Positions 1 to 17,695 of a DNA stretch of 64,000 nt are shown here, piece after piece; the stretch's first letter is position 1, and each line of letters starts with the position of its first letter. Source of the stretch: Mesorhizobium sp. CAU 1732 (GTDB lineage Bacteria; Pseudomonadota; Alphaproteobacteria; Rhizobiales; Rhizobiaceae); the NCBI RefSeq assembly GCF_039888675.1, contig NZ_JBDQQR010000005.1, positions 78,304-142,303 of the forward strand. Direction: 5' to 3'. A model generated the notes under the pieces. That model did no database searches and was not told the origin of the DNA. It saw only the letters and a list, made by a program, of their open reading frames with translations. A program made the position numbers and the translations under genes.

Positions 1-2
1 GC

Positions 3-287
3 ACGGGCGGGGGATGGTCGCCGTCGACCGAGGCTGCGATCCGCCATCTTGCGATGCAGGATGGCGCAGAGCTTGTCGCCGCCACCGACAATAATGAGCA
101 GGGCGATCGATATGCGGAAAGGCTGGAGGCAGTCGCGACTGAATCCGGTTGCAAATTCGCGCGCCTGCGTCCGGTCGAAGACGACTGGAACGCAGAACTG
201 AAGGCAAAGGTAAAAAGAGAAAAAGGGGGAAGGGAAGAGGAGGAGGAATCCCGGCTGCCGCATGCCCGCCGTCCGCCTCAAGGGTAA
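3..287 (+). CDS. Toprim-domain protein, C-terminal fragment (cut by window edge)
   Basis: The reading frame is open from the left edge and ends at TAA 285-287, giving the last 94 residues of a longer protein. The visible part contains ATDNNEQGDRYAERL, which fits the acidic D-x-D-like region of a Toprim fold (the metal-binding fold of primases and topoisomerases). Proteins with a DUF3991 plus Toprim layout are common beside the methylase-helicase genes of rhizobial plasmids, so a role in plasmid DNA processing or priming is inferred. The last 30 residues are low-complexity, lysine/glutamate-rich and poorly conserved in character; they coincide with a purine-rich stretch near 207-246. The N-terminus lies outside the window, so domain composition upstream is unknown. 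Confidence 0.6.
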   Translation, partial: TGGGWSPSTEAAIRHLAMQDGAELVAATDNNEQGDRYAERLEAVATESGCKFARLRPVEDDWNAELKAKVKREKGGREEEEESRLPHARRPPQG

Positions 288-426
288 AGCTTCGCCCGGC
301 TGCGCCGGCCCTTGACCCGGCCGGACGGAGAGGCGGCCGCGGGGAGGGGTCAGGAAGGCCGAAGAGGATGGTGATCCGCATGGGATGAACCGCGCTCCGG
401 CCTGACGAGGCTGAAGGAGCCCGCCA

Positions 427-1029
427 ATGACCCTCACCGCCATCCGCAAAGTCTATCAGGGCGTCGCCGATCGCCGGCAGACGTTCCGCATGTTCGATCG
501 CCATGCCCAGAGGCCTGACCGCTGGCAGAATGACGACAGCGCACTCTTCATCGGAGAGTGGTTCGAACATCGCCAGAGCGAGCACGACTACATGCTCAAC
601 ATCCTGCAGCCGCTCTGGATGCGGCATGATATGTTCGCCATGCGCGAGTTTCTGACGGGCAGCGTGACCAGCGTATTCTTCTCGCTCGCGATCGACGGAG
701 CCGTTCGTCATTTCCACGGCTATTGCGATCTTGCCGACAATGGCTCGCCCGAGCGCATGAAAGCCGCGATCATCGAGCGGGAAACCCGGCCGGTACGGGC
801 AATGACGCGCGACGAGCGGCTCGAGCATATCTGGAGCGCGACCGAGGACGGCTATCGCGGCTATGCCGATGAGCGTTTCCCGGTAACGCAGCGTGGCCAG
901 CGTGTCGTGATGATGTGTGCATCCCGGCAGGCGCGGACCTTCAGGCTGCTCGACCAGCTCACCGATGCCGAGGTGTCGACGAAGCTACCGGTGCATCTGC
1001 GCTACCTTCCCGAACAGATAGCGGCTTGA
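427..1029 (+). CDS. Hypothetical protein, 200 residues
   Basis: A complete 200-residue frame starts at ATG 427, a few bases after a GAAGGAG ribosome binding site, and runs on codons typical of its neighbours. I do not recognise a domain. The protein is soluble by composition, rich in Arg, His and Met, with no signal peptide or membrane segment. It has an aromatic-rich middle (SVFFSLAIDGAVRHFHGYCDL). The stop lies 14 bases before the next start, so it is probably cotranscribed with the DUF3085-like gene. Its position between a Toprim gene and the methylase-helicase suggests it belongs to the accessory block of the element. Confidence 0.75.
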   Translation: MTLTAIRKVYQGVADRRQTFRMFDRHAQRPDRWQNDDSALFIGEWFEHRQSEHDYMLNILQPLWMRHDMFAMREFLTGSVTSVFFSLAIDGAVRHFHGYCDLADNGSPERMKAAIIERETRPVRAMTRDERLEHIWSATEDGYRGYADERFPVTQRGQRVVMMCASRQARTFRLLDQLTDAEVSTKLPVHLRYLPEQIAA

Positions 1030-1043
1030 GCGGAGGCGGGACC

Positions 1044-1445
1044 ATGCTGACTTTCCCGATCTGCGATGTGCGCAAGGTCATAGCGCAGGGTATTGCCGAC
1101 GCTCTCGCCAATGGCGGCTTCAGCGACCCGCATCTGGGCCTGTCGGAACACGACAATTGCAAACCCGGCCTTTGGCTGGTTGGCGATCATGGGGTCTATC
1201 TGTGCTCGAACGGCAAACTGGCCGAGGGGCAGAAGCCTTTGGTCGCCTATGCCGAAGAGTGCAATCCCGATGTCAACGAGGACTGGTGGGACGTCAAACG
1301 CGCCACCTTCGGCAGTGACGACGGCGTGGACTTCCTCAGCGCGACCTCTCTTGAGGCGCTGTTTGCCGGTACGCCTGACGGCACGCATCTGCGCATAGCC
1401 TTCATGACGGAGTCGATGCAGCTCTTCATTGTCCGCAAGGACTGA
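1044..1445 (+). CDS. DUF3085-like protein
   Basis: The frame is open from further upstream, but ATG 1044 is chosen because GGAGGCGGG lies just before it and the preceding gene ends at 1029. The 133-residue product begins MLTFPICDVRKVI and contains PGLWLVGDHGVYLCSNG. This matches my recollection of DUF3085 proteins, small cytoplasmic proteins of unknown function found on alphaproteobacterial plasmids. No catalytic motif is evident. It is followed by 117 bases of non-coding sequence and then the methylase-helicase gene on the same strand. The family name is from memory, not from a search. Confidence 0.7.
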   Translation: MLTFPICDVRKVIAQGIADALANGGFSDPHLGLSEHDNCKPGLWLVGDHGVYLCSNGKLAEGQKPLVAYAEECNPDVNEDWWDVKRATFGSDDGVDFLSATSLEALFAGTPDGTHLRIAFMTESMQLFIVRKD

Positions 1446-1562
1446 TCCGCTTCGCCGCAAGGCGTAGCGCAATTCCACCCTTTCCAACTGATCGCGTTCA
1501 ACCAGCTTGCCGGCGCTCCGGCGGGAGGGTGACGCGCGCCTTCAACACAGGAGATATTTGAA

Positions 1563-4500
1563 ATGGCGCAAGACGATCCTTTCACGCTCGATATGTTCGG
1601 CAGCACCTCGCTGTCCTCCGGTCTTGGCCTTGGCGTGACCGCCTTTACCGACGACTTCGACCCGGATGACGATCCGGATTCCACCACGCCCGCACCGGCC
1701 ATTGCCGGTGTGGTGTGCTCGCCGAATCCGAAGACACAAAGCAATCCAGCTCGCGGCATGAACTTCCACCTCGCCGACAGCCGCGGTCTGGCGAAGGGCT
1801 GGAAGAAGCGTGCGCGCGACAGCATCGCAGCGATCCGGCTCGCCGCCGAAATCGAAGAGGAGGATCGTCCCGCCACAGGCGAGGAGCAGGAGCAGTTGAT
1901 CCGCTTCACAGGCTTCGGCGCATCGGAACTGGCCAATGGCGTGTTCCGCAAGCCCGGCGCGGTCGAATTCAGCAAGGGCTGGGAGGAGATCGGCGGCGAA
2001 TTGCAGGATGCCGTGGACGATACGGCCTATGCTTCGCTGTCACGCTGCACGCAATACGCCCATTTCACGCCAGAGTTCATCATTCGGGCGATCTGGTCAG
2101 GACTTCAGCGGCTTGGATGGCGTGGTGGCCGCATGCTCGAACCCGGTATCGGCACAGGTCTGTTTCCAGCGCTGATGCCCGAGGCGCTGCGCGACATCTC
2201 CCATCTGACAGGCATTGAGCTCGATCCAGTCACCGCCCGCATCGCCAGGCTGCTGCAGCCACGCGCCCGCATCATCACCGGCGATTTCGCGCACACCGAT
2301 CTGTCGGCCAGTTTTGATCTCGCCGTCGGCAATCCGCCATTCTCCAGCCGAACGGTCCGCTCCGACCGTGACTATCGCTCGATGAGTCTGGTGCTGCATG
2401 ACTATTTCATCGCGAGGTCGATCGACCTGCTGAAGCCGGGGGGCTTTGCCGCTTTCGTCACCAGCCATGGTACGATGGACAAGGCCGATTGCTCGGCGCG
2501 CGAGCATATTGCGAAGTCCGCCGACCTGATTGCCGCGATCCGTCTGCCCGAGGGCAGTTTCCGGGCCGAGGCCGGTACGGACGTCGTCGTCGACATCCTG
2601 TTCTTCCGCAAGCGCAAGACTGGAGAGCCTGAGGGCGATCAGGCCTGGCTCGATATTGATGAGGTGCGTCCAGCGACGGAGGACGAGGGGGCGATCCGCA
2701 TCAACAGATGGTTCGCCCGCCATCCCGACTTCGTGCTCGGCGAGCATGTCGTGCGCCACGGTATCTATGGCCCGAAGGAGACCTATTCCTGCCCGCCGCG
2801 CGACGGCGAGGATCTCGACGCGGCTCTTGCCGCCGCCATCTCCCTTCTTCCGGAAGCCCTTTATGACGGTGAGCCGACCGTCATCGATGCCGATCTGGAA
2901 GATATAGCCGATGGCGCCCCCGTCGATCTTCCGTCAGAGCGCCACGTTCGCGAAGGCAGCTTCTATTTCGAAAGGTCGCAGGGCCTGATGCAGATCATCG
3001 ACGGCGAGCCCGTTCCGGTGAAGGTTCGCAGGGGCCGCAGCAGCGACGGTATCCCGGAGAAGCATGTCGGCATCATCCGCAAGCTGATCCCGGTCCGCGA
3101 CGCCGTGCGCGAGGTGCTGAAGGCGCAGGAGCTCGACCGTCCCTGGAAGGATTTGCAGGTCAAGCTCAGGATCGCCTGGTCGAGCTTCGTGCGCGAGTTC
3201 GGCCCGATCAACCACACCACCGTCTCAATCACGGAGGATGAGGAGAGCGGCGAGGTTCGCGAAACTCATCGGCGTCCGAACCTCCAACCTTTCCTGGACG
3301 ACCCTGATTGCTGGCTGGTAGCGTCGATCGAGGATTATGATCTCGATACCGATACATCCCGCCCAGGCCCGATCTTCTCGGAGCGGGTGATCTCGCCGCC
3401 GGCGCCGCCTGTGATCACCAGTGCGGCCGACGCGCTCGCCGTGGTGTTGAACGAACGCGGCCATGTCGATCTCGACCACATCGCCGAGCTTCTGCACCGT
3501 GATGCGGATTCGGTCGTGGAGGAACTTGGGAGCGCGATCTTCCGTGATCCCGCAGATGGCTCGTGGCAGACCGCCGATGCCTATCTGTCCGGCCATGTTC
3601 GCGACAGACTGAGGGTGGCGGAAGCAGCAAGCGCGCTCGATCCCGCCTATCAGCGCAATGTCGCCGCACTTGCCGCCGTGCAGCCGATCGATCTTGGCCC
3701 TTCGGACATTACCGCTCGGCTCGGCGCGCCGTGGATACCGGCCGCCGATATCGTCGCCTTCATCAAGGAGACGATGGATGCCGACATAAAGATCCATCAC
3801 ATGCCCGAACTCGCGTCATGGACGGTCGAGGCGCGGCAACTCGGCTGGCTCGCCGTCGGCACATCGGAATGGGGGACCAACCGCCGTCATGCCGGCGAAC
3901 TGCTTGCCGATGCCCTCAACAGCCGCGTTCCACAAATCTTCGACACCGTGCGAGAGGGCTCCAGCGAACGGCGGGTGTTGAATGTCGTCGACACCGAGGC
4001 GGCAAAGACCAAGCTGCAGAAGATCAAGGATGCGTTCCAGCGCTGGATCTGGTCGGACGCCGATCGCACCGACCGGCTGGCGCGCGACTATAATGATCGC
4101 TTCAACAACATAGCGCCGCGCCGTTTCGACGGTTCGCATCTCCATCTTCCAGGCGCCTGTGCGGCCTTCACCCTCTATCCGCACCAGAAGCGTGGGATAT
4201 GGCGGATCATATCGTCGGGCGCGACCTATCTGGCGCATGCCGTGGGGGCCGGCAAGACGATGACCATGGCAGCCGGTATCATGGAACAGCGTCGTCTCGG
4301 CCTGATCGCCAAGGCGATGCTGACCGTCCCGGGCCATTGCCTCGCTCAGGTCGCGCGTGAGTTCCTGGCGCTCTACCCGAATGCCCGCATTCTCGTGGCC
4401 GACGAGACCAATTTTACCAAGGACAAGCGGGCCAGGTTCCTGTCGCGCGCGGCGACTGCGACATGGGACGCGATCATCATCACGCATTCGGCATTCAGGT

Positions 4501-6668
4501 TCATCGGCGTGCCCTCAGCCTTCGAGCAGCAGATGATCCATGATGAGCTGGAACTCTACGAGAAGCTGCTGCTCGACGTCGAGGACGACGACCGCGTCTC
4601 GCGCAAGCGGCTTGAGCGCCTGAAGGAAGGCTTGCAGGAACGGCTCGAAGGTCTCGCCACCCGCAAGGACGATCTGCTGACTATCTCCGAGATCGGCGTT
4701 GACCAGATCATTGTCGACGAGGCGCAGGAGTTCAGAAAACTCAGCTTCGCGACCAACATGTCCACGCTCAAGGGCGTCGATCCAAACGGTTCGCAGCGCG
4801 CCTGGGACCTCTATGTCAAATCCCGCTTCATCGAGGTGAAGAACCCGGGCAGGGCGCTCGTACTGGCGTCGGGAACCCCGATCACCAACACATTGGGCGA
4901 GATGTTCAGCGTGCAGCGGTTGATGGGCCATGCGGCGCTGATGGAACGCGGACTGCACGAGTTCGATGCCTGGGCGAGCACGTTCGGAGAAATGACGACC
5001 GAGCTCGAACTTCAGCCATCCGGCAAATACAAGCCGGTGTCACGCTTTGCCAGCTTTGTGAATGTCCCGGAACTGATCGCCATGTACCGGTCCTTCGCCG
5101 ATGTGGTGATGCCGGATGACCTGGCGCGCTATGTGAAGGTGCCGGCGATCTCTACCGGCCGACGCCAGATCGTCACGTCGAAGCCGACTTTAGCTTTCAA
5201 GCGCTACCAGATGATCCTGGCCGAGCGCATCAGGAAGATCGAGCTTCGCGAGCGGCCGCCAGAGCCCGGTGACGACATCCTGCTTTCCGTCATTACGGAT
5301 GGCCGGCATGCCGCGATCGATCTTCGCCTGGTCGATTGCGACAATGACAATGAGCCCGACAACAAGCTCAACAGTCTGATCTCCAACGCCTATCGCATTT
5401 GGCAGGAAACGGGAGCCAACAGCTACGTTCGCCCGGACGGCAAAGCCTATGAGCTTCCCGGCGCGGCGCAGATGATCTTCTCCGATCTCGGCACGATCAA
5501 TGTCGAGAAGACGCGCGGCTTCTCTGCCTATCGCTGGATCCGCGACGAACTGATCCGTATGGGCGTGCCCGCGTCCGAAATCGCCTACATGCAAGACTTC
5601 AAGAAGTCCGAAGCCAAACAGCGGCTGTTCGGCGATGTCCGTGCCGGCAAGGTACGTTTCCTTCTTGGAAGCTCCGAGACGATGGGCACCGGCGTCAATG
5701 CCCAGCTCAGGCTGAAGGCATTGCATCACCTCGACGTGCCATGGTTGCCATCGCAGATAGAGCAGCGCGAGGGCCGCATTGTCAGGCAGGGCAACCAGCA
5801 TGATGAGGTCGATATCTTCGCCTATGCCACCGAGGGTAGCCTCGACGCGACCATGTGGCAGAACAATGAGCGCAAGGCACGATTCATCGCCGCAGCATTG
5901 TCGGGCGACACCACCATCCGCAGGCTGGAGGATATGGGCGAAGGCCAGGCCAATCAGTTTGCGATGGCGAAAGCGATTGCTAGCGGCGATCAGCGCCTGA
6001 TGCAGAAGGCCGGTCTTGAAGCTGACATTGCTCGACTTGAACGGCTGCGCGCCGCCCATATCGACGATCAGCATGCCGTGCGCCGCAATATCCGTGATGC
6101 CGAGCGCGATATCGAGCAATCCACCCGCCGCATTGCCGAAATCGGCGAGGACATCGCGCGGCTCGTTCCAACCTCGGGCGAGGCCTTCTCGATGAAGGTG
6201 ACCGGCAAATCCTATGTCGACCGCAAGGATGCCGGTCGCGCCTTGCTCAAGGAAATCCTGACCCTGGTGCAGGTCCAGCAGGAAGGCGACACCATCATCG
6301 CCTCGATCGGCGGCTTCGATCTCGAATTCTCAGGCCAGCGCTTCGGCAATGACAGCTACCAATATGTCACTTCGCTTCTAATCACCGAGGCCGACGACGA
6401 GATCGACCTGCCGATCACGGTAACGCCGCTCGGCGCGATCTCCCGCCTCGAGCACGCGCTGTCAGGCTTCGACCATGACCAGGAGCGCTATCGCCAACGG
6501 CTTGCCGATGCCAACCGTCGGCTGGCGTCCTACCAGGCTCACGGCGACGGCGGAGACTTCGCGTTCGCCAACGAACTCGCCGACAAGCATCGGCAGCTTG
6601 CCGAGGTCGAGGCCGATCTGGCGCAGGATATCGATGGCATTGTCGACGTTGAGCCGCTCGCCGCCTGA
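1563..6668 (+). CDS. DNA methylase-helicase fusion protein (DarB-like architecture)
   Basis: This 1701-residue protein joins an adenine-type DNA methyltransferase to a superfamily 2 helicase. The methylase half shows a SAM-binding loop MLEPGIGTGLFPAL near residue 191 and the catalytic NPPF tetrad near 257. The helicase half has Walker A AVGAGKTMTMA near 895, a DEAQ Walker B near 1051 and motif VI EQREGRIVRQGN near 1402. A charged, coiled-coil-like segment follows at about 1480-1535. No nuclease motif is visible. This architecture is known from plasmids and ICEs and resembles phage P1 DarB, which protects incoming DNA from restriction; with ArdC downstream, an antirestriction role is inferred. 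The start is ATG 1563, preceded by AGGAGA. A strong hairpin follows the stop. Confidence 0.9.
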   Translation: MAQDDPFTLDMFGSTSLSSGLGLGVTAFTDDFDPDDDPDSTTPAPAIAGVVCSPNPKTQSNPARGMNFHLADSRGLAKGWKKRARDSIAAIRLAAEIEEEDRPATGEEQEQLIRFTGFGASELANGVFRKPGAVEFSKGWEEIGGELQDAVDDTAYASLSRCTQYAHFTPEFIIRAIWSGLQRLGWRGGRMLEPGIGTGLFPALMPEALRDISHLTGIELDPVTARIARLLQPRARIITGDFAHTDLSASFDLAVGNPPFSSRTVRSDRDYRSMSLVLHDYFIARSIDLLKPGGFAAFVTSHGTMDKADCSAREHIAKSADLIAAIRLPEGSFRAEAGTDVVVDILFFRKRKTGEPEGDQAWLDIDEVRPATEDEGAIRINRWFARHPDFVLGEHVVRHGIYGPKETYSCPPRDGEDLDAALAAAISLLPEALYDGEPTVIDADLEDIADGAPVDLPSERHVREGSFYFERSQGLMQIIDGEPVPVKVRRGRSSDGIPEKHVGIIRKLIPVRDAVREVLKAQELDRPWKDLQVKLRIAWSSFVREFGPINHTTVSITEDEESGEVRETHRRPNLQPFLDDPDCWLVASIEDYDLDTDTSRPGPIFSERVISPPAPPVITSAADALAVVLNERGHVDLDHIAELLHRDADSVVEELGSAIFRDPADGSWQTADAYLSGHVRDRLRVAEAASALDPAYQRNVAALAAVQPIDLGPSDITARLGAPWIPAADIVAFIKETMDADIKIHHMPELASWTVEARQLGWLAVGTSEWGTNRRHAGELLADALNSRVPQIFDTVREGSSERRVLNVVDTEAAKTKLQKIKDAFQRWIWSDADRTDRLARDYNDRFNNIAPRRFDGSHLHLPGACAAFTLYPHQKRGIWRIISSGATYLAHAVGAGKTMTMAAGIMEQRRLGLIAKAMLTVPGHCLAQVAREFLALYPNARILVADETNFTKDKRARFLSRAATATWDAIIITHSAFRFIGVPSAFEQQMIHDELELYEKLLLDVEDDDRVSRKRLERLKEGLQERLEGLATRKDDLLTISEIGVDQIIVDEAQEFRKLSFATNMSTLKGVDPNGSQRAWDLYVKSRFIEVKNPGRALVLASGTPITNTLGEMFSVQRLMGHAALMERGLHEFDAWASTFGEMTTELELQPSGKYKPVSRFASFVNVPELIAMYRSFADVVMPDDLARYVKVPAISTGRRQIVTSKPTLAFKRYQMILAERIRKIELRERPPEPGDDILLSVITDGRHAAIDLRLVDCDNDNEPDNKLNSLISNAYRIWQETGANSYVRPDGKAYELPGAAQMIFSDLGTINVEKTRGFSAYRWIRDELIRMGVPASEIAYMQDFKKSEAKQRLFGDVRAGKVRFLLGSSETMGTGVNAQLRLKALHHLDVPWLPSQIEQREGRIVRQGNQHDEVDIFAYATEGSLDATMWQNNERKARFIAAALSGDTTIRRLEDMGEGQANQFAMAKAIASGDQRLMQKAGLEADIARLERLRAAHIDDQHAVRRNIRDAERDIEQSTRRIAEIGEDIARLVPTSGEAFSMKVTGKSYVDRKDAGRALLKEILTLVQVQQEGDTIIASIGGFDLEFSGQRFGNDSYQYVTSLLITEADDEIDLPITVTPLGAISRLEHALSGFDHDQERYRQRLADANRRLASYQAHGDGGDFAFANELADKHRQLAEVEADLAQDIDGIVDVEPLAA

Positions 6669-6680
6669 ATGATCATGATG

Positions 6681-6708
6681 GCCCGCCATGTCCTCGGACG
6701 TGGCGGGC
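6681..6708 (+). terminator. Hairpin after the methylase-helicase gene
   Basis: Arms GCCCGCCATGTCC and GGACGTGGCGGGC pair over 13 positions with one G-T pair and a two-base spacer, 12 bases after the stop codon. The following bases (TATTCTCATG) give only a weak T-tract, so this could be a weak terminator or an mRNA-stabilising 3' end. Confidence 0.5.
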
Positions 6709-6994
6709 TATTCTCATGTCGTCGCCAGAAAAGATGGGGAGGGAAAAAGAAAAAGGGGAGGGAAAAGCCCGCTCGCAGATCGGGCGGTCAGGTGACGCTG
6801 GCGCTCAACCGCGCCGCTCGCGATCCCGGCCCGTCTTCCTCGCAAGGCGCTGACGCGCCCCGCTCGTCTGGCCGGGCAGGGATGCTCGGCCGCAGTTGCA
6901 CCAGGCCGTCCGCTCCGCGGGCCGGTGGGGGTCTTCGGGAAGAAGACAGGACCGGCAAGGCCCGGTTCTCCAACCCCCATGAAGGAGTAATTCC
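6709..6994. other. Intergenic region with purine-rich tract before the parB-like gene
   Basis: No gene is supported here. The stretch opens with a strongly purine-rich tract at about 6731-6771 (AAAGAAAAAGGGGAGGG) that resembles the tract at 207-246, and is then GC-rich. AAGGAG at 6982-6987 is the ribosome binding site of the next gene. Short frames on both strands look like chance openings in GC-rich DNA. Confidence 0.5.
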
Positions 6995-8656
6995 ATGCAT
7001 GTCATGAAGGTCGATCCGCGCGCGCTGAACGAGAATCCCGACCGTTCGCGCCAGACCAAGTCCACCCCGCAGGCAGACCTGTTGCTGCTTGCGACCATCA
7101 AGGCTGTCGGTATCGTTCAGCCCCCGGTGATCTTTCAGCAGACCGATGGCGGCAATGGCTATGTCATCGATTCCGGTCATCGCCGTGTCCGGCAGGCAAT
7201 CAAAGCCGGTCTTGAAGAGATCGACGTGATCGTTGTCGAGGCTTCCAACGACAATGGCGCAATGCGCTCGATCGTCGAGAACACGGCGCGCGATCCGCTC
7301 AACCCAGTCGATCTTTGGCGCGCAATCGAGCGCCTGGTTGCTCTGAGCTGGACCGAGGAGGCGATTGCGATTGCTCTGTCACTCACGGTTCGCCGTGTCC
7401 GTCAGCTCAGGCTAATGGCCAATGTGCTGCCGGCCATGCTCGATCACATGGCGAAGGGCGATATGCCCAACGAGCAGCAGCTACGCACGATCGCATCCGC
7501 CTCGCTCGATGAGCAGAAGGAGGTCTGGAAGGCCAACAAGCCGTCGAAGTCCGACCCCAGGGCGAACTGGTGGGGCATTGCCAATGCGCTGACGAAGACG
7601 CGCATGTTCGCCAAGGACGCCAGCTTCGATGACGAGCTTGCGCGCGCCTATGGCATCGAATGGGAGGAAGACCTGTTCGGTCCCGCCGACGAGGATGGCC
7701 GCTACACCACCAATGTGGAAGCCTATCTCGGCGCGCAGCAGGAATGGATGACCAACAACCTGCCCAAGCGCGGCATCGTTGCCGAAACCGGCGACTACGG
7801 CGAGGTCAAGCTGCCGAAGAAGGCAGAGCGCGTCTATGGCAAGCCGACGAAGTCGGATCACACCGCCATGTATATCGACCGACAGGGCAAGGTGCAGAGT
7901 GTCGTCTATCGCATGCCCGAGGAGAAGAAAGCGAAGGGCGACGCCGGTGATACGGATGTGGCTCCGACTGCACGACCCGACGTCACCCGCAAGGGGCTCG
8001 ACATGATCGGCGACCTGCGCACCGACGCCCTGCATGAGGCGCTTGCCCGAGCACCGATCGAGGACGACACGCTGATGGCGCTGCTCGTTCTGGCCTTTGC
8101 CGGCATGAACGTCTCGGTGACATCAGGGGCCAGCGGCGCATCGCCCTATGGGTCGGCCAATCTTGGCGAACATGCTGCACGGCTATTCAACCCCGAAGGC
8201 GCTTTCGCCTTCGACATGGACACGCTGCGCATCGCGGTTCGGTCCGTGTTGATCGAGGTGCTGTCATGCCGCTCGGGTCGGTCGAAGAGCGGCACTGTCG
8301 CGCTCGTTGCCGGCGATGCGGTCGGCGCTGACGGCTTCCTCGCCAATATGGGGACGGAGGAGTTCCTGTCGTGCCTGTCGCGTCCGGCTCTGGAGGCATC
8401 GTGCAAGGACACGCCGGTCCTGCCGTGCCGGAAGGTGAAGGACACGCGCGCCGCTCTGGTCGAGCATTACGCAGAGGGACGGTTCGTCCACGCTTCTGCG
8501 CTGTTCGAGCCGAACGCGATCAAGCTCGCAAACTGGCTCAAGGAGAACGAGCCAGTCGCCGAGGATCAGGACGAGGGTGACGACGATCAGGTCGATCACG
8601 CCGACGAGTCCGAAGGCGAAGAGTTCGACGAGCCATTCCGCGAAGCCGCCGAATAG
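6995..8656 (+). CDS. ParB/Spo0J-family protein with long acidic C-terminus
   Basis: The N-terminal 100 residues form a ParB nuclease-like domain: VDPRALNENPDRSR, then QPPVIFQQ and GHRRVRQAIKAG. A helix-turn-helix-like region follows (TEEAIAIALSLTVRRVRQLRLMANVLP, about residues 125-150). At 553 residues it is much longer than a canonical partition ParB (about 300), and it ends in a very acidic tail (EDQDEGDDDQVDHADESEG). No parA is adjacent, so this is probably not the partition protein of a replicon. ParB-like proteins of this type usually sit beside the methylase-helicase gene on rhizobial plasmids, which suggests a DNA-binding or CTP-binding partner role. ATG 6995 follows AAGGAG by seven bases. 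A rho-independent terminator ends the unit. Confidence 0.85.
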   Translation: MHVMKVDPRALNENPDRSRQTKSTPQADLLLLATIKAVGIVQPPVIFQQTDGGNGYVIDSGHRRVRQAIKAGLEEIDVIVVEASNDNGAMRSIVENTARDPLNPVDLWRAIERLVALSWTEEAIAIALSLTVRRVRQLRLMANVLPAMLDHMAKGDMPNEQQLRTIASASLDEQKEVWKANKPSKSDPRANWWGIANALTKTRMFAKDASFDDELARAYGIEWEEDLFGPADEDGRYTTNVEAYLGAQQEWMTNNLPKRGIVAETGDYGEVKLPKKAERVYGKPTKSDHTAMYIDRQGKVQSVVYRMPEEKKAKGDAGDTDVAPTARPDVTRKGLDMIGDLRTDALHEALARAPIEDDTLMALLVLAFAGMNVSVTSGASGASPYGSANLGEHAARLFNPEGAFAFDMDTLRIAVRSVLIEVLSCRSGRSKSGTVALVAGDAVGADGFLANMGTEEFLSCLSRPALEASCKDTPVLPCRKVKDTRAALVEHYAEGRFVHASALFEPNAIKLANWLKENEPVAEDQDEGDDDQVDHADESEGEEFDEPFREAAE

Positions 8657-8685
8657 GCCGTCCCTTCTCTTTCCGAATGCCATTC

Positions 8686-8713
8686 CGCCGCCGGGTCACA
8701 CCGGCGGCGTTTT
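8686..8713 (+). terminator. Rho-independent terminator after the parB-like gene
   Basis: Perfect 9-bp arms CGCCGCCGG and CCGGCGGCG flank a six-base loop (GTCACA) and run into TTTTCATTTT. It lies 30 bases after the stop of the parB-like gene and is one of the clearest terminators in the window. Confidence 0.85.
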
Positions 8714-8741
8714 CATTTTCAGCAACAGATAGGTTTGCACC

Positions 8742-9215
8742 ATGTCAGCATCGCTGATCTTCGACATTGCCCCGATAGGCTCGATCGTCTCCTGGTCGGA
8801 CAGGACCCCGCGTCCGCCCGAGCGCCACCGCAAGAAGCTATCGGCGTGGAAGGGCTCCAATAGCTTTGGACGCCTGATCCGCAAGCAGGGCCAGCGCATC
8901 ATGGGCAGTGTGATTCTGCCCGCCAGCTTCACCCTCCATGAAGGCGATCATGGCGCGCATGGCGTGGTCGTCATCCGCGTGCATCGCAGCTTCTCCGTCA
9001 ACACGAACCTGCGCTTCACCGTGCTCGAGCGCCCTGCCATCGGATCGGTGCGGATATTTGACCGCGCTGGCGACAATGCCGAGCTCGTGCATCTCGCCGG
9101 CAGCAGGCAGCAGGCCGAGGAATGGCTGTCGCGCCATGGCTATCCGCGCGCCGTCATGCAAACCGTGTCGGCCGACGAGGTTGCCGCCGACAGCGTTGAG
9201 GGGAGGGCGGCGTAA
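8742..9215 (+). CDS. Hypothetical protein, 157 residues
   Basis: This complete frame begins at ATG 8742, just after a terminator, so it probably has its own promoter in the AT-richer 8710-8735 stretch. The 157-residue product has no domain I recognise. It has a basic N-terminal third (PRPPERHRKKLSAWKGSNSFGRLIRKQ) followed by an alternating hydrophobic, beta-rich middle, which may suit nucleic-acid binding. Its TAA stop overlaps the ATG of the next gene (TAATG at 9213-9217), so the two are translationally coupled. Confidence 0.75.
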   Translation: MSASLIFDIAPIGSIVSWSDRTPRPPERHRKKLSAWKGSNSFGRLIRKQGQRIMGSVILPASFTLHEGDHGAHGVVVIRVHRSFSVNTNLRFTVLERPAIGSVRIFDRAGDNAELVHLAGSRQQAEEWLSRHGYPRAVMQTVSADEVAADSVEGRAA

Positions 9216-10102
9216 TGGCGAACTCCCCGCACACAACAACAACGGGCTCCACTTCCCGGTTTCCGGAGGTGGAGTTCGGCCACACGGCAGACGGCATGTT
9301 CGCCGCCCGTGTGGCCGACAACGCTTTTGCCATGGCGCCGTGCCGCGACGGTTCTCATTATCTCGTGACGGCCTGGCGGATCGGCAGGCCGATCACTGAG
9401 TGGAAACGCGCCGATTTCTATGGCCATTCCGGCTCGCTCGCCGACGAAGCCGGCTTCCGCGCCAGAGTTCTGGAAAATGCGGAGCATCAGCGTGAGAAGC
9501 TGGCGCTCGGTCGGCGCGAGATCCACTCGAGCGCCTCTACGCCATGGGGCCCGTCTCAGGGCGGCACTGTCTTTGCCGAGGGCATCACCTGCCACTCGAC
9601 CGCCGGCCATGGCGGTTTCCATCTGTCGGCCGATCGTAACCGCAAAGTCCATCCGTCGCTGCGCGCCAATCGCGGTTGGTATGAAGAAGATGAGTGCTGG
9701 GCGATCGTCGCGATCAGCTTCCCTCATCTCTTCACCAGCTTCGAACGGCGTTGCGCGGAATCTACGATGAAGGACAGTTGGCCCGACCAGTGGGAGGCCA
9801 TCACTGGCATAGTCCTTCAGCCGGGTGAATCCCGCACGAAGGACGAGCGCGCCTTCCTCGCAGAACATGCCGATGACTGGCTGGTGCAGTCGGCCATCAT
9901 GTCCGATCCGCATCCGGGCTTCACCGAGGTCATCGCGACCAGAGGCGGTTGCCGTGAGGATGGCGTCGAGCGCCGGCGTTTCCTCGTCCCTTCGTCCGAA
10001 TACAAGATGGGGCGCTTTGGCTTCGTCATCGATACCGGACGTCATGCCGAGTATAGCGATGCGTCGAGCTTTCCGGGCATCCACGGCAAGAGGGTCGCGT
10101 GA
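9215..10102 (+). CDS. DUF7007-like protein
   Basis: The 295-residue product contains GHGGFHLSADRNRKVHPSLR followed by GWYEEDECWAIVAISFP. I associate this signature with DUF7007, a family of unknown function on alphaproteobacterial plasmids; the assignment is from memory. Conserved His, Asp and Glu residues in that stretch could be functional, but no known catalytic motif is evident. There is no signal peptide or membrane segment. It overlaps the upstream gene by one base and the downstream gene by one base (TGATG), which makes a tight three-gene unit from 8742 to 10428. Confidence 0.75.
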   Translation: MANSPHTTTTGSTSRFPEVEFGHTADGMFAARVADNAFAMAPCRDGSHYLVTAWRIGRPITEWKRADFYGHSGSLADEAGFRARVLENAEHQREKLALGRREIHSSASTPWGPSQGGTVFAEGITCHSTAGHGGFHLSADRNRKVHPSLRANRGWYEEDECWAIVAISFPHLFTSFERRCAESTMKDSWPDQWEAITGIVLQPGESRTKDERAFLAEHADDWLVQSAIMSDPHPGFTEVIATRGGCREDGVERRRFLVPSSEYKMGRFGFVIDTGRHAEYSDASSFPGIHGKRVA

Positions 10103-10428
10103 TGGCCGCCCTCGATCCCCGCGCGCGTCTCTTCCGCATGGAGGAGGCACGTCGCCAGACCCAGCATCAGCTCAGCATGATTGAGCGCCAGATCACCCGG
10201 CGAATGACTGCGTTGATCCCGCAATTGCAGCCTAAGCGAAAAGCCTTCCATCGCGGCAGGCCACCCGATCCGGCATCGTTCCTCGAACGCTACCGGTCCA
10301 ATCTTGCCGCGATCACGGCTGAGCGTCAGCACGAGATCGATGCCCTGTCGCGCAAGCTGGCGCGGCAGGAGGACGCGATTGTGGTGTTTCGCAGGCGTTA
10401 TGCGCTCGGAGCTGCTCAAGCCGCTTAG
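10102..10428 (+). CDS. Small basic helical protein, 108 residues
   Basis: ATG 10102 overlaps the stop of the DUF7007-like gene by one base. The 108 residues are rich in Arg, Gln and Glu. Two helical stretches (EEARRQTQHQLSMIERQITRRM and ITAERQHEIDALSRKLARQE, quoted in part from longer runs) could form a coiled coil. I recognise no domain. The tight coupling makes it likely to act with, or be co-expressed with, the two proteins encoded upstream. Confidence 0.65.
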   Translation: MAALDPRARLFRMEEARRQTQHQLSMIERQITRRMTALIPQLQPKRKAFHRGRPPDPASFLERYRSNLAAITAERQHEIDALSRKLARQEDAIVVFRRRYALGAAQAA

Positions 10429-10793
10429 AGGCCTCGACTCTTACGGGTCGAACAAGGCGCTCAACCTCTTTTTTTGATGCCGGTGTCTGTGAGCAGCCCT
10501 TGGCCCTTCTTGCCGGCGGGTTTGCTGCGGTCTGAACCAGCGGCTTGCCGCTTCAAGGCCGCTATCGCGCCGCAGAGCGGCCGAAGCACAGCCGATCTCG
10601 GCAGGGTTACCCCGCGCACTGCGCAGGGACCAGTGAAGAACTGGCCCACGCTTGTCCGCAAGCCAGCCCCGCTCGCCTGTCTGGCTCCGGACCCTGAAGC
10701 GCCCAGCTTGCGCCGGTTCTGTTTGACCGCACCCGCAGGCAAGAAGGGCCGAGGGCCAATCACCTGAAGGGCATCGTCAGAAAGGTAAGCTCA
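10429..10793. other. Intergenic region bounded by a long-range inverted repeat
   Basis: No gene is supported. The stretch contains an imperfect inverted repeat: GGCCCTTCTTGCC at 10502-10514 recurs in reverse complement at about 10738-10750, and GCGGGT and GCGGTC blocks are also mirrored inward with a five-base gap in one arm. The roughly 190-bp space between the arms has short frames on both strands that are not convincing genes. Confidence 0.45.
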
Positions 10794-11381
10794 ATGTCCA
10801 GTTCAACCCGTCAACCCAAGTCCCGCGCCCGCGCTGCGCAGACCCGCAAGGGCACCACGTTGGAAATGGTCCGGCTCTGCTGCCCCGACAGCAACCAGGC
10901 ATCCCTCATCTCCGAAAGCTTCGGGCTCCCTGTCCTCGACAGCGGCGGCATCCGCGAGTTCCACGAGCGCAGTCTGATCGAAGGCGCCGACACCCTCTCC
11001 GAGGGGCTCTCCGACAAGGCGATGCAGATCCATCTCCAGAGGATAGTCGGATCCTATGTCGGCTCGGCCTACGGCGCAGGCCAGTTCTACTCGAAGGCCG
11101 TCTCCGAGGCGAAGGATGCCTCGGCAAGGCTGGCCAACGACGCCCGCGACGAGGATCTCGAAGGCCCCGTGGGCTTCGACAGCGCCGCCCAGCGCAAGCG
11201 CGAGTTCGCCGCTGACATGGGGCTCCAGTCCCACGCCCTGCGCATGGCTGCCGAAGGCGCGGTAGCCGCCTACGAGCACATCGTCGGCGAGGCGTGGAAG
11301 CCCTACGAGCGCCAGGTCGAGAACCCCGGCCAGAGCGTCAGCCGCAAAGCGGCCGAACTCCAGATGGCGGCTCTCGGCTGA
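10794..11381 (+). CDS. Hypothetical protein, 195 residues
   Basis: The frame starts at ATG 10794 after AGAAAGGTAAGCTCA. The product begins with a basic segment (SSSTRQPKSRARAAQTRKG) and continues as an Ala/Glu-rich, probably helical protein ending in SRKAAELQMAALG. I do not recognise a family. Codon use is like its neighbours, with strong preference for C or G in third positions, which supports a real gene. It is followed nine bases later by a stable hairpin. Its place between the DUF7007 unit and ArdC points to the accessory block of the element, but no function can be given. Confidence 0.75.
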   Translation: MSSSTRQPKSRARAAQTRKGTTLEMVRLCCPDSNQASLISESFGLPVLDSGGIREFHERSLIEGADTLSEGLSDKAMQIHLQRIVGSYVGSAYGAGQFYSKAVSEAKDASARLANDARDEDLEGPVGFDSAAQRKREFAADMGLQSHALRMAAEGAVAAYEHIVGEAWKPYERQVENPGQSVSRKAAELQMAALG

Positions 11382-11389
11382 GCCCTTTC

Positions 11390-11411
11390 GGGCGGAGCTT
11401 CGGCTCCGCCC
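11390..11411 (+). terminator. GC-rich hairpin with TTCG loop
   Basis: Perfect 9-bp arms GGGCGGAGC and GCTCCGCCC enclose a TTCG tetraloop, just after the stop at 11381. There is no T-tract, so it may act as an mRNA 3'-end stabiliser or rho-assisted terminator. Confidence 0.5.
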
Positions 11412-11709
11412 ATACATACCCCATCAAGGCCGGTTTCCTTCGGGACGCCGGCCTCTTCGCGTGTCCAGACTGGGATTCAGAATGAGCAGGGTCAACGTGA
11501 CCGCACCGATCGCGGCCGTCACGAAAGCTGGTCCTGCTCCGGTCCTCGTCCCGCGAAACGGCTGCGCCGTCCTTCACTGGCGTTGCGGCCCGCAGGCGAC
11601 ATCTCCCTTCCTTCCGATTGCTCATCGCGGGTTCGCGGACCTGCGGTCCTGCGCGGTCGGACCTCGTGACGGCCGCGATCGGCGCGGCCCCGAACTGGAG
11701 GTCCGGTAA
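11412..11709. other. Intergenic region upstream of ardC
   Basis: About 300 bases with no convincing gene. An 82-residue plus-strand frame ends at 11709, just before the ardC start, but it is Arg/Pro-rich and looks like chance. A second hairpin-like pair (GGCCGG / CCGGCC) sits near 11430-11455. Confidence 0.4.
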
Positions 11710-12636
11710 ATGGACAGGAAGAGCAATAAACCCCGCGTCGACATCTATGCGAAGATCACCGACCGGATCGTCGCGGATCTGGAGAAGGGCACGCGCCCCT
11801 GGGTGAAGCCATGGAGCGCGGCCAATACCGCCGAACGGATCACCCGCCCGCTTCGGCACAACGGATTGCCGTATCAGGGGATCAATACCCTGCTTTTGTG
11901 GTCGGAGACGGTCGCGCGGGGCTTCGTCTCGCCAACCTGGATGACCTACAAGCAAAGCGCCGAACTGGGCGGTCAGGTCCGCAAGGGCGAGACCGGCTCG
12001 ATGGTCGTCTATGCCAGCCGATTCACGCGTACCGAAACCGATGCGCGGGGCGAAGAGGTCGAGCGCGGAATTCCGTTCCTCAAGGCATACACCGTCTTCT
12101 GCGCCGATCAGATCGATGATCTGCCGGCGCAGTATTACGGCAATCCTGCGCCGGTGGCCGATGCTGTCGAACGTATCGCGCATGCCGATGCGTTCTTTGC
12201 CAATACCGGCGCGATCATCCGCCACGGTGGTAACCAGGCCTTCTTCAATCCGCTGCTCGACATCGTCCAGATGCCGCCCTTCGAGTGCTTCCGCGATGCT
12301 GCCGGATATTATGCGACCCTCGGTCACGAGATGACCCATTGGGCTGGGTCGGACAAGCGGCTCGATCGCAATCTCTCGCGCTATAGCAAGGATCGGTCGT
12401 TCCGTGCCCACGAAGAACTCGTGGCAGATCTTGGCGGTTGTTTCCTCGCCGCCGATCTCGGAATAGTGCCCGAGCTCGAACCACGCCCCGATCACGCCAG
12501 TTACCTCGCCAGTTGGCTGACGATACTCAAGAACGACAAGCGGTACATCTTCGCAGCCGCCGCCCATGCCCAGCGTGCCATCACCTATCTGCACGGACTT
12601 CAGCCGGACGCCGAGCAAATCGCGGAGGCGGCGTGA
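11710..12636 (+). CDS. ardC: ArdC-family antirestriction protein (ssDNA-binding plus metallopeptidase)
   Basis: The 308-residue protein has the ArdC layout. An N-terminal ssDNA-binding domain (about residues 8-130) carries the KGTRPWVKPW, YQGINTLLLW and GGQVRKGETG motifs. A C-terminal zincin-like metallopeptidase domain carries GHEMTHWAGSDKRLDR, with the zinc-binding HEMTH near residue 206 and a downstream EELVADLGG glutamate. ArdC proteins of conjugative plasmids protect transferred DNA from type I restriction and can bind single strands during entry. ATG 11710 follows GGAGGTCCGGTAA. Presence with a DarB-like methylase-helicase and traA suggests these genes act soon after transfer. The zinc site looks intact. 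Confidence 0.9.
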   Translation: MDRKSNKPRVDIYAKITDRIVADLEKGTRPWVKPWSAANTAERITRPLRHNGLPYQGINTLLLWSETVARGFVSPTWMTYKQSAELGGQVRKGETGSMVVYASRFTRTETDARGEEVERGIPFLKAYTVFCADQIDDLPAQYYGNPAPVADAVERIAHADAFFANTGAIIRHGGNQAFFNPLLDIVQMPPFECFRDAAGYYATLGHEMTHWAGSDKRLDRNLSRYSKDRSFRAHEELVADLGGCFLAADLGIVPELEPRPDHASYLASWLTILKNDKRYIFAAAAHAQRAITYLHGLQPDAEQIAEAA

Positions 12637-13300
12637 TCTGGCAGGCCGAAGGCCCCGCCTCACGACGGAGTGCTGTCGCAGCGCTCATCCCGTGTGGCGG
12701 AACCGGATCAACAGGCTGTATTGACCGTCACCACAGATGGGGTGGGCCATTCGAATGGCGAAGGCGGATGTCTCCGGCTTGCGAGGGGAAGGCGTTAAAC
12801 CTCATTGAGTTCTCCCGGCACGCCGGACGACATGCGACCGGCAGGCGGATGGTATCCCGGTCTGGTCGAGCGGGGGTCTCGCAGGCGCGCGTGGCAAGAT
12901 GCCGGGAGGCCGGGCTGGAAAGCGTCTGCCTAAGCTGTGTCGAAATGAACGTCCCGACAGGGTGGCCAGTCGTCTCGCCAGTGGTTTCCTGGAGAGGGCG
13001 CAACCAACTGCGTCCTCGATGTGGCTGGTCTGACCGAAGGCCGTCTTCGCTGCGCTGTGTCTCGTTCTAAAGCCCGCAACATCCGTTCGGTACTTTCTTC
13101 CCCTGCCGAAACCACCCCACGCGACAGGTCGCGCGGGGACCCCGGTTTTGCCGTCATTCCCCGCGGAACAAGAAAGACCCGCCCTGGCTGCCCTCCTCTG
13201 CGTTCCGGCCCCTGCGGGGTGCGAGCCGATCGCCTCCGGTCTGTCGACCGCCATCGAGGTCGCGATGGTCGCGGCCCGAGAAAAACACGGAGACGACATC
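12637..13300. other. 664-bp region without a supported gene
   Basis: Several frames open on both strands here (for example 12802-13479 on the minus strand), but all are rich in Arg, Pro and Ser, have no ribosome binding site worth the name and show no recognisable motif. The last 50 bases lead into the DUF736 gene and should hold its promoter. I see no tRNA, repeat array or IS end. Confidence 0.4.
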
Positions 13301-13609
13301 ATGGCTACCATCGGCACCTTCACCTCCACCGGCAACGGCTTCACCGGCGCCATCAAGACCCTCAACCTCAACGTCAAAGCCAAGCTGGTCCGCGTCGAGA
13401 ACCCCTCAGACAAGGGACCGCATTTCCGCATCTTCTCAGGCTCGGTTGAGCTCGGTGCGGCCTGGCAGAAGGTCTCCAACGAGGGCCGCGACTACCTCTC
13501 GGTCAAGCTGGACGATCCGAGCTTCCCTGCTCCGATCTACGCCACCCTGATCGAGGTGGAGGGCGAGGAAGGCCTGCAGCTGATCTGGTCTCGCCCCAAC
13601 CGGGACTGA
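13301..13609 (+). CDS. DUF736 family protein
   Basis: The 102-residue product begins [21 protein letters not shown], the hallmark of DUF736. It continues with the expected beta-rich body and an [25 protein letters not shown] core. DUF736 proteins are small cytoplasmic proteins of unknown function, nearly always encoded on conjugative plasmids and ICEs of Alphaproteobacteria, often near tra genes. The frame is open further upstream, but ATG 13301 gives the family's conserved N-terminus. A GC-rich hairpin (GGCTCCGCC / GGCGGGGCC) follows the stop at about 13625-13646 and may be a terminator. Confidence 0.9.
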
Positions 13610-13750
13610 TTGCCCCGAAAGAGGGCTCCGCCGCGAGGCGGGGCCTTCGGCCGTTCGAGGCCCGGTGGTCGATGCGTATCTCGGACCGCGTACGGATTGG
13701 CGGGTAATTCCCGCGCTCGATGCGGAGACACGTCAGCGTTTCCCGGCCGC

Positions 13751-14029: not shown

Positions 14030-14174
14030 GTAAAGTGTGCCTCTGTCCTTAATAGCCCCCACAATCTATGCCGATGAAAGCAGGTTTGGGGAAGAGATTG
14101 CGCGTTCCATGGCAGAGGCAGAAACGGCAAAGTCACAGGCAATAGCCGTACCATCGTCTTGGTTCTGTGCCAGT

Positions 14175-14619: not shown

Positions 14620-15011
14620 ATGACAGAGCATGGTGATAACGACGCCGCTGCGACGGGTCCTCATGGGACACTGCGCGCCATGCCTTTGCTTAAGGTCTCC
14701 CGTTCAGCGCTCTGGAGGCAATCGGCCGCGCCGGTTTCTACGGCGCATGGCATCTTCTCTACTTCGCTGCATGTGCGTTTCGTGCCTTCACCGCCTTCAT
14801 GGTTCTCGCCGCCATCGTCATGCTGCCAATGGCACTTTGCGTATTCGTCAATCCGAACGCCGCCCCCATGCCGTGGTGGACCTTCCTGATGATGTCGCTC
14901 GGCATGATCGCCTTCGCCATCTTCTATTGCAGGTTCCTCGACTGGTTCACGCCGCCCGGGGCGACGGACCCCTTTGGCCGATACCGGCCATCGGTCAGGC
15001 GGAAGTCTTGA
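14620..15011 (+). pseudogene. Small membrane protein gene, apparently frameshifted
   Basis: ATG 14620 follows an AAAGGA ribosome binding site and opens a frame beginning MTEHGDNDAAATG. After about 14690 the convincing coding signal moves to another frame, which after TAA 14691-14693 reads SALEAIGRAGFYGAWHLLYF. It goes on to two membrane segments (AFMVLAAIVMLPMALCVFV and WWTFLMMSLGMIAFAIFY) and stops at 15011. That frame has no ATG, GTG or TTG before ATG 14799. The simplest reading is a one-base indel near 14660-14710 in a gene for a small inner-membrane protein of about 125 residues. If 14799 is the true start, a 70-residue protein remains. The 3' end overlaps traG, transcribed convergently, by 17 bases. 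Confidence 0.4.
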
Positions 15012-17475: not shown

Positions 17476-17639
17476 ATGCTGTTTTCCTTCCGGTCGCAAT
17501 GGCATCAATGCAGCGATTATACCGTGTAGAAACGCATAGTAAAAGATGCTAGTTTTCACCGAGCCGAATGGCTCGTTTCAGGTCTGCGCCCGTTCGGGCG
17601 CATCCCGAGAGACGGCATCGGCCCTTCGGTCCGATCTGT

Positions 17640-17675
17640 TCGAGGGCGCAATATACGTCGCTGAAGCGACATGCT
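17640..17675. other. oriT: Candidate origin of transfer (oriT) nic region
   Basis: Between the divergent traC and traA genes lies GGGCGCAATATACGTCGCTG (from 17644). It overlaps a perfect hairpin GTCGCT-GA-AGCGAC at 17657-17670. On the complementary strand the core reads TGCGCCCT, the core found at nic sites of Ti-type and RSF1010-type oriTs. The position relative to traC and traA also matches Ti plasmids. The exact nick position is not determined from sequence alone. Confidence 0.7.
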
Positions 17676-17695
17676 TGGGAGGCTTAGGCGATCGC

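Follow-up and report, generated by a model that had tools for sequence, protein, structure and literature searches.

Plasmid leading regions carry anti-defence islands in which antirestriction genes lie near oriT and take the T-strand as template; darB is named in one such island, and in F-type plasmids Frpo precedes ssb (Samuel et al. 2024, PMC11541004, main-text account). ArdC of plasmid R388 is required in the recipient and not in the donor (PMC7213743, available text), and DUF3085, a domain whose function is not known, was enriched more than any other factor in the broad-host-range plasmids of an Enterobacterales study (PMC12826799, available text). The locus described here resembles the leading-region islands in having antirestriction genes near oriT, on its leading side and with the T-strand as template, but a Ti-type backbone of the form DarB-ParB-DUF7007-195aa-ArdC-DUF736, together with its leaders, does not appear in the parts consulted of PMC11541004. 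A literature search on the methylase-helicase and ArdC of Rhizobium plasmids returned no paper.

The window is a stretch of 64,000 nucleotides from Mesorhizobium sp. CAU 1732 (contig NZ_JBDQQR010000005.1, positions 78,304 to 142,303). A sequence-only reading had proposed that a methylase-helicase, a long ParB-like protein, a DUF7007-like gene and ArdC form an entry-protection module within it. Its open reading frames were recovered at the positions given in Table 1, and Pfam confirmed both the DUF7007 gene and ArdC. The block extends beyond that list to DUF3085, DUF736 and the 3' end of a DUF3991/toprim gene, and 427-1029, previously unnamed, is a DUF1419 gene. Homologues of the gene ending at 287 are annotated as DUF3991 or DUF3991/toprim in the related loci L006 and L007.

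Table 1. Features of the block and its surroundings in window coordinates, with the number of eligible loci holding each gene in the survey of 80 DarB loci
Feature	Position	Strand	Eligible loci with gene	Remarks
DUF3991/toprim-domain gene, 3' end	1..287	+	71/72	opens the block; ORF runs past the window edge, with its start upstream
DUF1419 gene	427..1029	+	77/77	Pfam PF07215, 192 bits
DUF3085 gene	1044..1445	+	58/80	Pfam PF11284, 125 bits
DarB-like N6-adenine methylase/SNF2 helicase fusion	1563..6668	+		1701 aa; Pfam and PHROG
ParB operon leader	6669..6994	-		structure read on T-strand
Long ParB	6995..8656	+		NCBIfam PRK13832 'plasmid partitioning protein', 914 bits vs cut-off 640
157-aa gene	8742..9215	+	57/68	no family above curated cut-off
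DUF7007 gene	9215..10102	+	56/67	Pfam, 165 bits
109-aa gene	10099..10428	+	50/66	start overlaps preceding gene in most loci (spacing -4 to -1 nt)
195-aa gene leader	10429..10793	-		T-strand fold
195-aa gene	10794..11381	+	58/66	predicted all-helical
ArdC leader	11382..11709	-		T-strand fold
ArdC gene	11710..12636	+	52/64	ArdcN 142.5 bits, MPTase-PolyVal 154.6 bits
DUF736 leader	12977..13300	-		module in common with ArdC leader
Core element R1	13090..13185	-		variant copy, long apical hairpin; covariance model 47.7 bits, E 1.2e-8
DUF736 gene	13301..13609	+	33/62	Pfam 115 bits, scored for ORF 13148-13609
TraG	14995..16914	-		89% identity to annotated TraG of L006
Ti/IncQ-type oriT	17635..17680	-		predicted nick TTGCG/CCCTC between 17647 and 17646
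TraA relaxase	17696..22333	+		78% identity to annotated TraA of L006; lagging side

The description of the 1701-residue protein as a methylase-helicase fusion without a nuclease motif was borne out by Pfam and PHROG. N6_Mtase matches residues 217-354 and Helicase_C residues 1340-1410, so that an N6-adenine methylase is followed by a SWI2/SNF2 helicase in a single chain, as in the DarB-like class, and PHROG 10089 'DarB-like antirestriction' matches residues 63-1689 with 1633 bits. No nuclease domain was detected in the chain with Pfam at E<=0.1, which does not fit a type I/ISP-like restriction enzyme; only ResIII scores weakly, on the helicase part (19.4 bits vs a cut-off of 22.5). The blocks NPPF, GAGKT, DExQ and QREGRIxRQG are invariant across five DarB sequences, the other four being 53-83% identical to the block protein. 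DarB of phage P1 is likewise an N6-methylase followed by an SNF2-type helicase, with 32% identity to the block protein in the methylase and 23% and 26% in the helicase parts. However, P1 DarB has 2255 residues and reads NVPF in place of NPPF, and the block DarB is plasmid-borne, with no virion. Weak matches to the DrmD and mad2 models could indicate a BREX/DISARM-like defence enzyme that guards the resident plasmid from others. Since these scores fall far under the curated cut-offs (52.9 vs 610 bits) and the DarB family itself matches across nearly the whole length, we consider such a role highly improbable.

The 553-residue ParB-like protein reported beside the methylase-helicase is a PRK13832 member with a ParB N-terminal domain. 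Its GxRR and ENxxR, presumably the CTP-binding blocks, are invariant in five sequences, and it adjoins DarB in 68 of the 69 loci long enough to show ParB. ArdC of the block combines ArdcN with a zincin metallopeptidase domain, the two features of ArdC proteins, and thus resembles R388 ArdC with its N-terminal ssDNA-binding and C-terminal metalloprotease domains (PMC7213743, available text). It differs in lying within a multi-gene block and in having its own structured leader. The genes at 8742-9215, 10099-10428 and 10794-11381 had no family above curated cut-off in Pfam and NCBIfam, and their PHROG matches were all weak (best E 0.004). Predicted structures of the DUF7007 protein (pLDDT 87) and the 195-aa protein (pLDDT 81) gave zero matches at E<=0.001 in a fold search against the PDB.

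The position of the block relative to oriT, on which the sequence-only reading did not draw, strengthens the case for an entry role. If nicking has the polarity of RSF1010/pTi, the T-strand is predicted to be the minus strand, and it passes leftwards through the block. Transfer from oriT (~17647) is predicted to bring in TraC/D/G first and the block next, and the 11 backbone genes take the predicted T-strand as template. One position check took in 49 of 85 loci. The survey of oriT and TraA counted 71 DarB copies, 74 rows having been reduced by 3 in which a split DarB gene appeared a second time, and 35 of these copies share a contig with oriT or TraA. DarB takes the predicted T-strand as template in 35/35 (reference: oriT in 28, TraA alone in 7) and is on the leading side in 33/35 by linear coordinates, at 10.8-37.2 kb (median 16.7 kb). 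In the remaining two (G353 and G350), DarB and the reference are near opposite contig ends, which fits wrap-around; the separation in G353 is 15.4 kb should its contig of 164,396 bases be circular. The oriT pattern gave 42 matches across 49 genomes or records, 41 with TraA immediately downstream, and its reversed form gave zero matches in the same set. As in leading-region islands, then, oriT separates the block, on its leading side, from the relaxase, and on the presumed polarity the block has the T-strand as template. Since this is its location, the label of an entry module is supported and this part of the earlier proposal stands; the genes may also have a joint antirestriction function, perhaps working as a single machine.

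Ti-type plasmids share the block as a conserved backbone: its order holds in 79 of 80 DarB loci (DarB 75-83% identical), the genes present lying on the DarB strand. The earlier expectation that its genes co-occur more often than by chance held for DarB and the long ParB, found in 15 and 6, respectively, of 327 Rhizobiales genomes and together in 5 (Fisher p 5.8e-7; p 1.1e-5 with the window's own genome removed). Gene order kept at 75-83% DarB identity can also be compatible with shared descent, and the block might be an ordinary plasmid backbone with ParB serving partition and no joint entry function; in Acetobacter, a ParA gene does adjoin DarB-ParB. Nevertheless, DarB and ParB remain close down to 53-59% DarB identity, and the block outlasts insertions, with up to 7.2 kb from DarB to ParB. 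Its placement relative to oriT is retained, and the plasmid brings repB and repC of its own, a ParB_N gene lying elsewhere immediately before repC. We therefore regard an ordinary backbone as unlikely. No ParA partner is found next to the long ParB among the block genes. Inserted ORFs show no T-strand bias, 98/173 lying on the DarB strand inside the block vs 177/316 outside.

ParB, the 195-aa gene, ArdC and DUF736 are each preceded by a conserved structured leader, in four transcription units; the sequence-only reading had missed these leaders. Folding z-scores were drawn from 17 loci, each leader being present in fewer. The 195-aa leader folds on the T-strand (mean z -5.9, 11/11 below -2, -7.6 in the window), with 47 pairs, 19 of them covarying, vs 0-12 pairs in column-shuffled controls. 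The ArdC leader also folds on the T-strand (mean z -4.2, 8/11 below -2, -4.7 in the window), and its consensus fold shows no strand preference, both strands being equal. For the ParB leader, the consensus fold gives -39.2 on the T-strand vs -11.6 on the gene strand and has 27 pairs vs 8-20 in column-shuffled controls; its z-scores are weaker (mean -2.0, -1.19 in the window). The DUF1419-DUF3085-DarB unit has a short leader whose folding is not above chance (z -0.2). Consensus folding without wobble left few pairs. Counted on the gene strand, A.C exceeds G.T by 5:1 in the 195-aa leader, 13:7 in the ArdC leader and 10-11:0 in the DUF736 leader; in the ParB leader the count is 26:8 or 2:4 depending on the strand folded, one of which leans the opposite way. 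A profile search among the four showed that the ArdC and DUF736 leaders have a module in common. A common origin of all four was not borne out: the ParB and 195-aa profiles recovered almost only their own kind. The available parts of the literature on DUF736, DUF1419, DUF3085, DUF7007 and DUF3991 contain no description of the leaders.

With moderate confidence, we propose that Ti-type (MOBQ) plasmids carry in this block an establishment module of the leading region, with leaders that act at entry. The leaders would fold on the entering single strand, where host RNA polymerase could use them as promoters (or primers). ArdC, the ParB operon, the 195-aa protein and DUF736 would thereby be made before or during second-strand synthesis. 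ArdC may then protect the DNA against type I restriction, like R388 ArdC, DarB would travel along the new duplex and methylate it, and ParB and the uncharacterised proteins may act on the incoming DNA in some manner. The requirement for ArdC in the recipient agrees with this proposal. Against it speak the inserted ORFs without strand bias, the ArdC leader with its equal folds on both strands, the short leader of the DUF1419-DUF3085-DarB unit, and the HU and WGR genes on the opposite strand. The original guess about methylase, ParB and ArdC thereby becomes a testable map of entering strand, templated genes and candidate non-coding starters.

The best-defined element is a core with the architecture stem-CGCGAGGAAT-hairpin-AGGGG-stem. 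A covariance-model search covered 62 of the 80 DarB loci as well as the window and four parts of its contig; in 85 DarB loci, the core copies are on the DarB strand in 39/39. The exact pattern occurs in 50 of 327 Rhizobiales genomes. Genes downstream of the core include DUF736, SSB (as in Methylocella), SLOG and ArdC, and the core is also present in chromosomal loci and, among the matches listed, in phage contigs. Of 152 distinct pattern matches among those listed, 64 did not pass the stem test, of which 56 were viral, 7 from genomes and 1 from a plasmid. A curated set was derived from the 88 stem-bearing elements by removing 21 near-duplicates and 4 elements whose hairpins were very long. Manual exclusion of a further 14/63, for variant spacers or for long or weak hairpins, makes this set lean to the canonical form; one core pair count took all 88. 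Core covariation was strong (0.598 vs 0.187 when shuffled), and the wobble pairs, 41 favouring the T-/template strand and 5 the opposite, point to the T-strand as the folding strand. Two adjacent pairs account for 29 of the 41 cells; setting these aside leaves 12 vs 5. No wobble bias is seen in the apical hairpin (5 vs 3).

This polarity fits equally well a regulatory RNA that is transcribed from the minus strand and so lies antisense to the leader; such an RNA might, for instance, attenuate the gene that follows and be unrelated to ssDNA. The chromosomal and phage copies agree with such an RNA, and since phage DNA does not enter as a T-strand, the latter count against the T-strand reading. 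On the other hand, the core lies ~80-180 nt ahead of the gene start in most loci. With Rfam 15, positions 1-18000 of the window had no match at E<=0.5, and none was found at the core element in 14 loci or in L003. The plasmid copies also match T-strand polarity in 39/39, as follows from the core always preceding a block gene. We consider a minus-strand RNA the less probable reading.

The core is best read, by analogy, as a putative Frpo-like single-strand element for expression at entry. As with Frpo/ssi, a conserved secondary structure, placed on the T-strand with the reservations above, stands before early genes including ssb (PMC11541004, main-text account). It differs in its conserved CGCGAGGAAT and AGGGG loop sequences and its occurrence in phage contigs, and the two are likened by structure and position. 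Rather than promoters, the leaders might be single-strand initiation sites (ssi/sso) at which second-strand synthesis is primed by RNA polymerase or by a primase, the latter perhaps encoded by the toprim gene. The near-constant presence of that gene (Table 1), toprim (DUF7146) genes in the four chromosomal loci inspected and the branched T-strand folds are in keeping with this; however, a location directly ahead of each transcription unit better suits promoters, and Frpo is promoter and initiation site at once, so the readings overlap. We rate priming sites as rather doubtful.

The virion RNA polymerase of phage N4 uses hairpin promoters in the template strand for early genes at entry. The core would resemble these as a putative template-strand hairpin for early genes. 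Our Frpo-like reading could tentatively be widened to an undescribed family of template-strand-folded single-strand promoters, common to alphaproteobacterial plasmids, chromosomal mobile elements and tailed phages, that would switch on ArdC, SSB, DUF736, SLOG and DarB-type genes together at DNA entry and mark unknown early anti-defence genes; the concentration of most wobble bias at two base pairs weakens this. If these are single-strand promoters, they could explain timely ArdC expression in recipients of Ti-type plasmids, and the core would be a sequence tag by which plasmids, mobile elements and phages could be searched for early genes not yet known. Among 20 chromosomal core loci, TraG is on the element's strand in 8/8 that hold TraG. 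In the window, HU and WGR genes sit between the block and TraG, on the opposite strand.

The sequence-only reading had placed a DarB-like methylase–helicase, a long ParB-like protein and ArdC in one candidate entry-protection module; the ORFs, coordinates and domains it claimed were all confirmed by ORF and family searches, and the block now comprises eleven plus-strand genes (table). We used five aligned DarB proteins as the query against genome contigs and analysed the best 80 of 531 relatives. The row members found share the DarB strand, and those present keep the gene order of the window in 79 of the 80 loci, with a single locus (L036) lacking any row gene past DarB. Since DarB identity across these loci is 75–83%, they are close relatives and shared descent therefore counts. 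At lower identity, Methylocella (DarB 58–59%) has ParB, DUF7007, the 195-aa gene, toprim and ArdC nearby in a different order, and in Acetobacter (53–54%) ParB directly follows DarB. The association of DarB with the long ParB exceeds chance: among 327 genomes drawn from the order, 15 carry DarB, 6 the long ParB and 5 both (Fisher P = 5.8e-7; 1.1e-5 without the window's own genome), and 47 of 48 DarB-bearing genomes or records have the long ParB.

Features of the block and its surroundings. Presence is counted over loci long enough to show the gene; leader columns refer to the non-coding DNA ahead of the gene (z, T-strand fold; pairs, with the range in five controls; wobble, A.C/G.T on the gene strand)
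Feature	Coordinates	Remark	Present	Mean z	z below -2	Window z	Pairs (controls)	Wobble
DUF3991/toprim gene	ends at 287	left limit of block	71/72
DUF1419 gene	427-1029	family added to the earlier reading	77/77
DUF3085 gene	1044-1445	added to the earlier list	58/80
DarB gene	1563-6668
ParB gene	6995-8656		68/69	-2.0	6/13	-1.2	27 (8-20)	69/22
157-aa gene			57/68
DUF7007 gene			56/67
109-aa gene			50/66
195-aa gene			58/66	-5.9	11/11	-7.6	47 (0-12)	113/84
ArdC gene			52/64	-4.2	8/11	-4.7	21 (0-8)	18/7
Core copy	13090-13185	covariance model, 47.7 bits
DUF736 gene	13301-13609	right limit of block	33/62	-2.7	6/8	-2.1	41 (8-17)	52/19
oriT, Ti/IncQ-type	17635-17680	between divergent TraC and TraA

Spacing suggests the operons DUF1419–DUF3085–DarB and ParB–157–DUF7007–109, with the 195-aa gene, ArdC and DUF736 each single; most large insertions fall between these operons and a few inside. 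ORFs inserted in the block showed no strand bias (98/173 on the DarB strand versus 177/316 outside).

Since the minus strand of oriT bears an inverted repeat followed by TTGCG|CCCTC, the transferred strand (T-strand) is predicted to run left through TraC/D/G and then the block, the nick polarity being presumably that of RSF1010 and pTi. By the same polarity, TraA would be on the lagging side. The position of DarB was compared in 48 genomes or records from 49 of 85 loci, giving 71 DarB copies after three fragment rows were dropped. For 35 of these the contig also carries an oriT match (28) or TraA alone (7), at a median distance of 16.7 kb; all 35 lie on the same strand as oriT or TraA, and 33 lie upstream in linear coordinates, the remaining two fitting a circular contig, whose length is known for G353 only. 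The oriT pattern, which misses the window's own oriT (shorter by one base), gave no match in its reversed control. Relaxases are described as typically lying on the lagging side (PMC11541004). Block genes may be expressed early from single-stranded DNA, and their proteins may act in antirestriction. ArdC of R388 is reported to be required in the recipient and to counter HsdRMS (PMC7213743), and methylation plus translocation by DarB-like proteins has been proposed by Iyer et al. (PMC5512222).

Non-coding DNA of ∼240–370 nt or more, with conserved blocks, precedes ParB, the 195-aa gene, ArdC and DUF736. Folding z-scores for the T-strand, computed on 17 loci, are shown in the table; for comparison, the DUF1419 leader gave −0.2 (1/17 below −2) and coding stretches −0.8 (3/16) and −1.25 (3/11). 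Under RNA energy rules, the T-strand gave far stronger consensus folds than the gene strand did in the leaders of the 195-aa gene (−43.2 versus −14.8), ParB (−39.2 versus −11.6) and DUF736 (−52.4 versus −29.6), whereas the ArdC leader folded equally on both strands (−28.0). Under a strand-neutral pairing rule, with column-shuffled controls, gene-strand A.C (that is, T-strand G.T) outnumbers gene-strand G.T in all four leaders, of which that of ParB is the weakest case. DarB has no long structured leader of its own (1441–1562).

Within the DUF736 leader lies a 60-nt core, which reads on the T-strand as stem, NNN, CGCGAGGAAT, hairpin, AGGGG, stem. The stem sequence differs by source (CTTTCTT, CTAATTT, GCGATTTT and others), the loops are constant, and the stem is missing in 7 of 32 distinct genome elements. 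Pairing holds in 90.4% of cells, with both sides changed in 147, and covariation is 0.598 versus 0.187 when shuffled (0/500 shuffles reach it) and at most 0.156 when slid. On the gene strand of 88 stem-bearing elements, A.C and G.T number 45 versus 4 in the stem and 5 versus 3 in the apical hairpin. A 49-row alignment, built in T-strand letters with element choice and pair scoring strand-symmetric, gave T-strand G.T as 41 versus 5 (plasmids 18:1, genomes 16:3, viral contigs 7:1), two adjacent pairs accounting for 29 of the 41 and the rest being 12 versus 5. These wobble counts lean to the T-strand and so favour folding of the strand from which the gene downstream is templated. The main rival reading is that the core elements are a minus-strand RNA; Rfam gave no match at the core elements searched.

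All 39 core copies found by pattern in 85 DarB loci, near-identical strains included, are on the DarB strand. Of the 327 genomes drawn from the order, 50 carry the exact pattern, which does not catch the window's variant copy; the matches listed number 72, versus 1 for the reversed pattern. Across 67 sources the covariance model placed 37 of 37 hits on the T-strand, partly by construction as some rows built the model, and it also detected second copies in chromosomal loci. Besides the DUF736 copy, many such loci in the order (among L263–L282) have a second same-strand core before a SLOG-like (YAcAr) gene.

Downstream of the core lie DUF736 genes; in 30 loci fetched from pattern-positive genomes, an ORF followed in 28 and a DUF736 start motif in 19. 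A SLOG-like gene follows 12 of 14 examined second copies (16 in all), the domain being confirmed by Pfam for L273, L280 and L282; the other two, which lie on opposite strands of L270, precede DUF736-like genes. L270 has four core hits in all, on both strands. In Methylocella the core precedes a 195-aa homologue and an SSB. Among IMG/VR contigs, ArdC lies downstream of the core in L233, DarB ∼1.9 kb beyond it in L249 and an ArdC-type protein ∼1.3 kb beyond it in L207, which holds terminase and head-tail genes; most of 30 viral elements tested had no such homologue within the fetched piece. Genes of the core-bearing viral contigs L207, L175, L159 and L262 include terminase, head-tail adaptor, tail fibre and RecE-like. 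Chromosomal locus L273 carries on one strand ArdC, ParB-like, toprim (DUF7146), SLOG, DUF736, a replication initiator, a DUF3363 relaxase and TraG, and in L282 a Strawberry-notch helicase adjoins ParB and toprim. The ParB–toprim–DUF736 association, with ArdC too in L273, thus extends past this plasmid type, and perhaps other helicases take the place of DarB in chromosomal relatives.

The window is the end (78304–142303) of contig C5 (142,303 bases), which carries two repC genes (at 49996 and 54762), suggesting a composite replicon. Since a ParB_N gene immediately precedes one repC, repABC partition of the plasmid is probably served by a protein other than the long ParB. Solved structures matched a five-DarB profile in the methylase part only (TaqI, StySJI M). 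PDB fold searches at E ≤ 0.001 gave no match for DUF7007 (model pLDDT 87) or the 195-aa protein (pLDDT 81, modelled as all helices). Just outside the block, on the minus strand ∼2.2–4.1 kb left of the window (L025:15860–17802), is a Thoeris pair (PADLOC models; ThsA 495 bits, ThsB 201 bits). The right part of the window (24316–44280) looks catabolic, with enoyl-CoA hydratase, acyl-CoA dehydrogenase, AMP-binding, FAA hydrolase and branched-chain amino-acid transport genes. Many DarB homologues in plasmid records (PLSDB rows H61–H63 and others) are annotated 'lactate dehydrogenase', which looks like propagated misannotation. A human-faecal 'Bacteriophage sp.' record, MT836168.1, holds a DarB with 70% identity to that of the window and may be a plasmid fragment.
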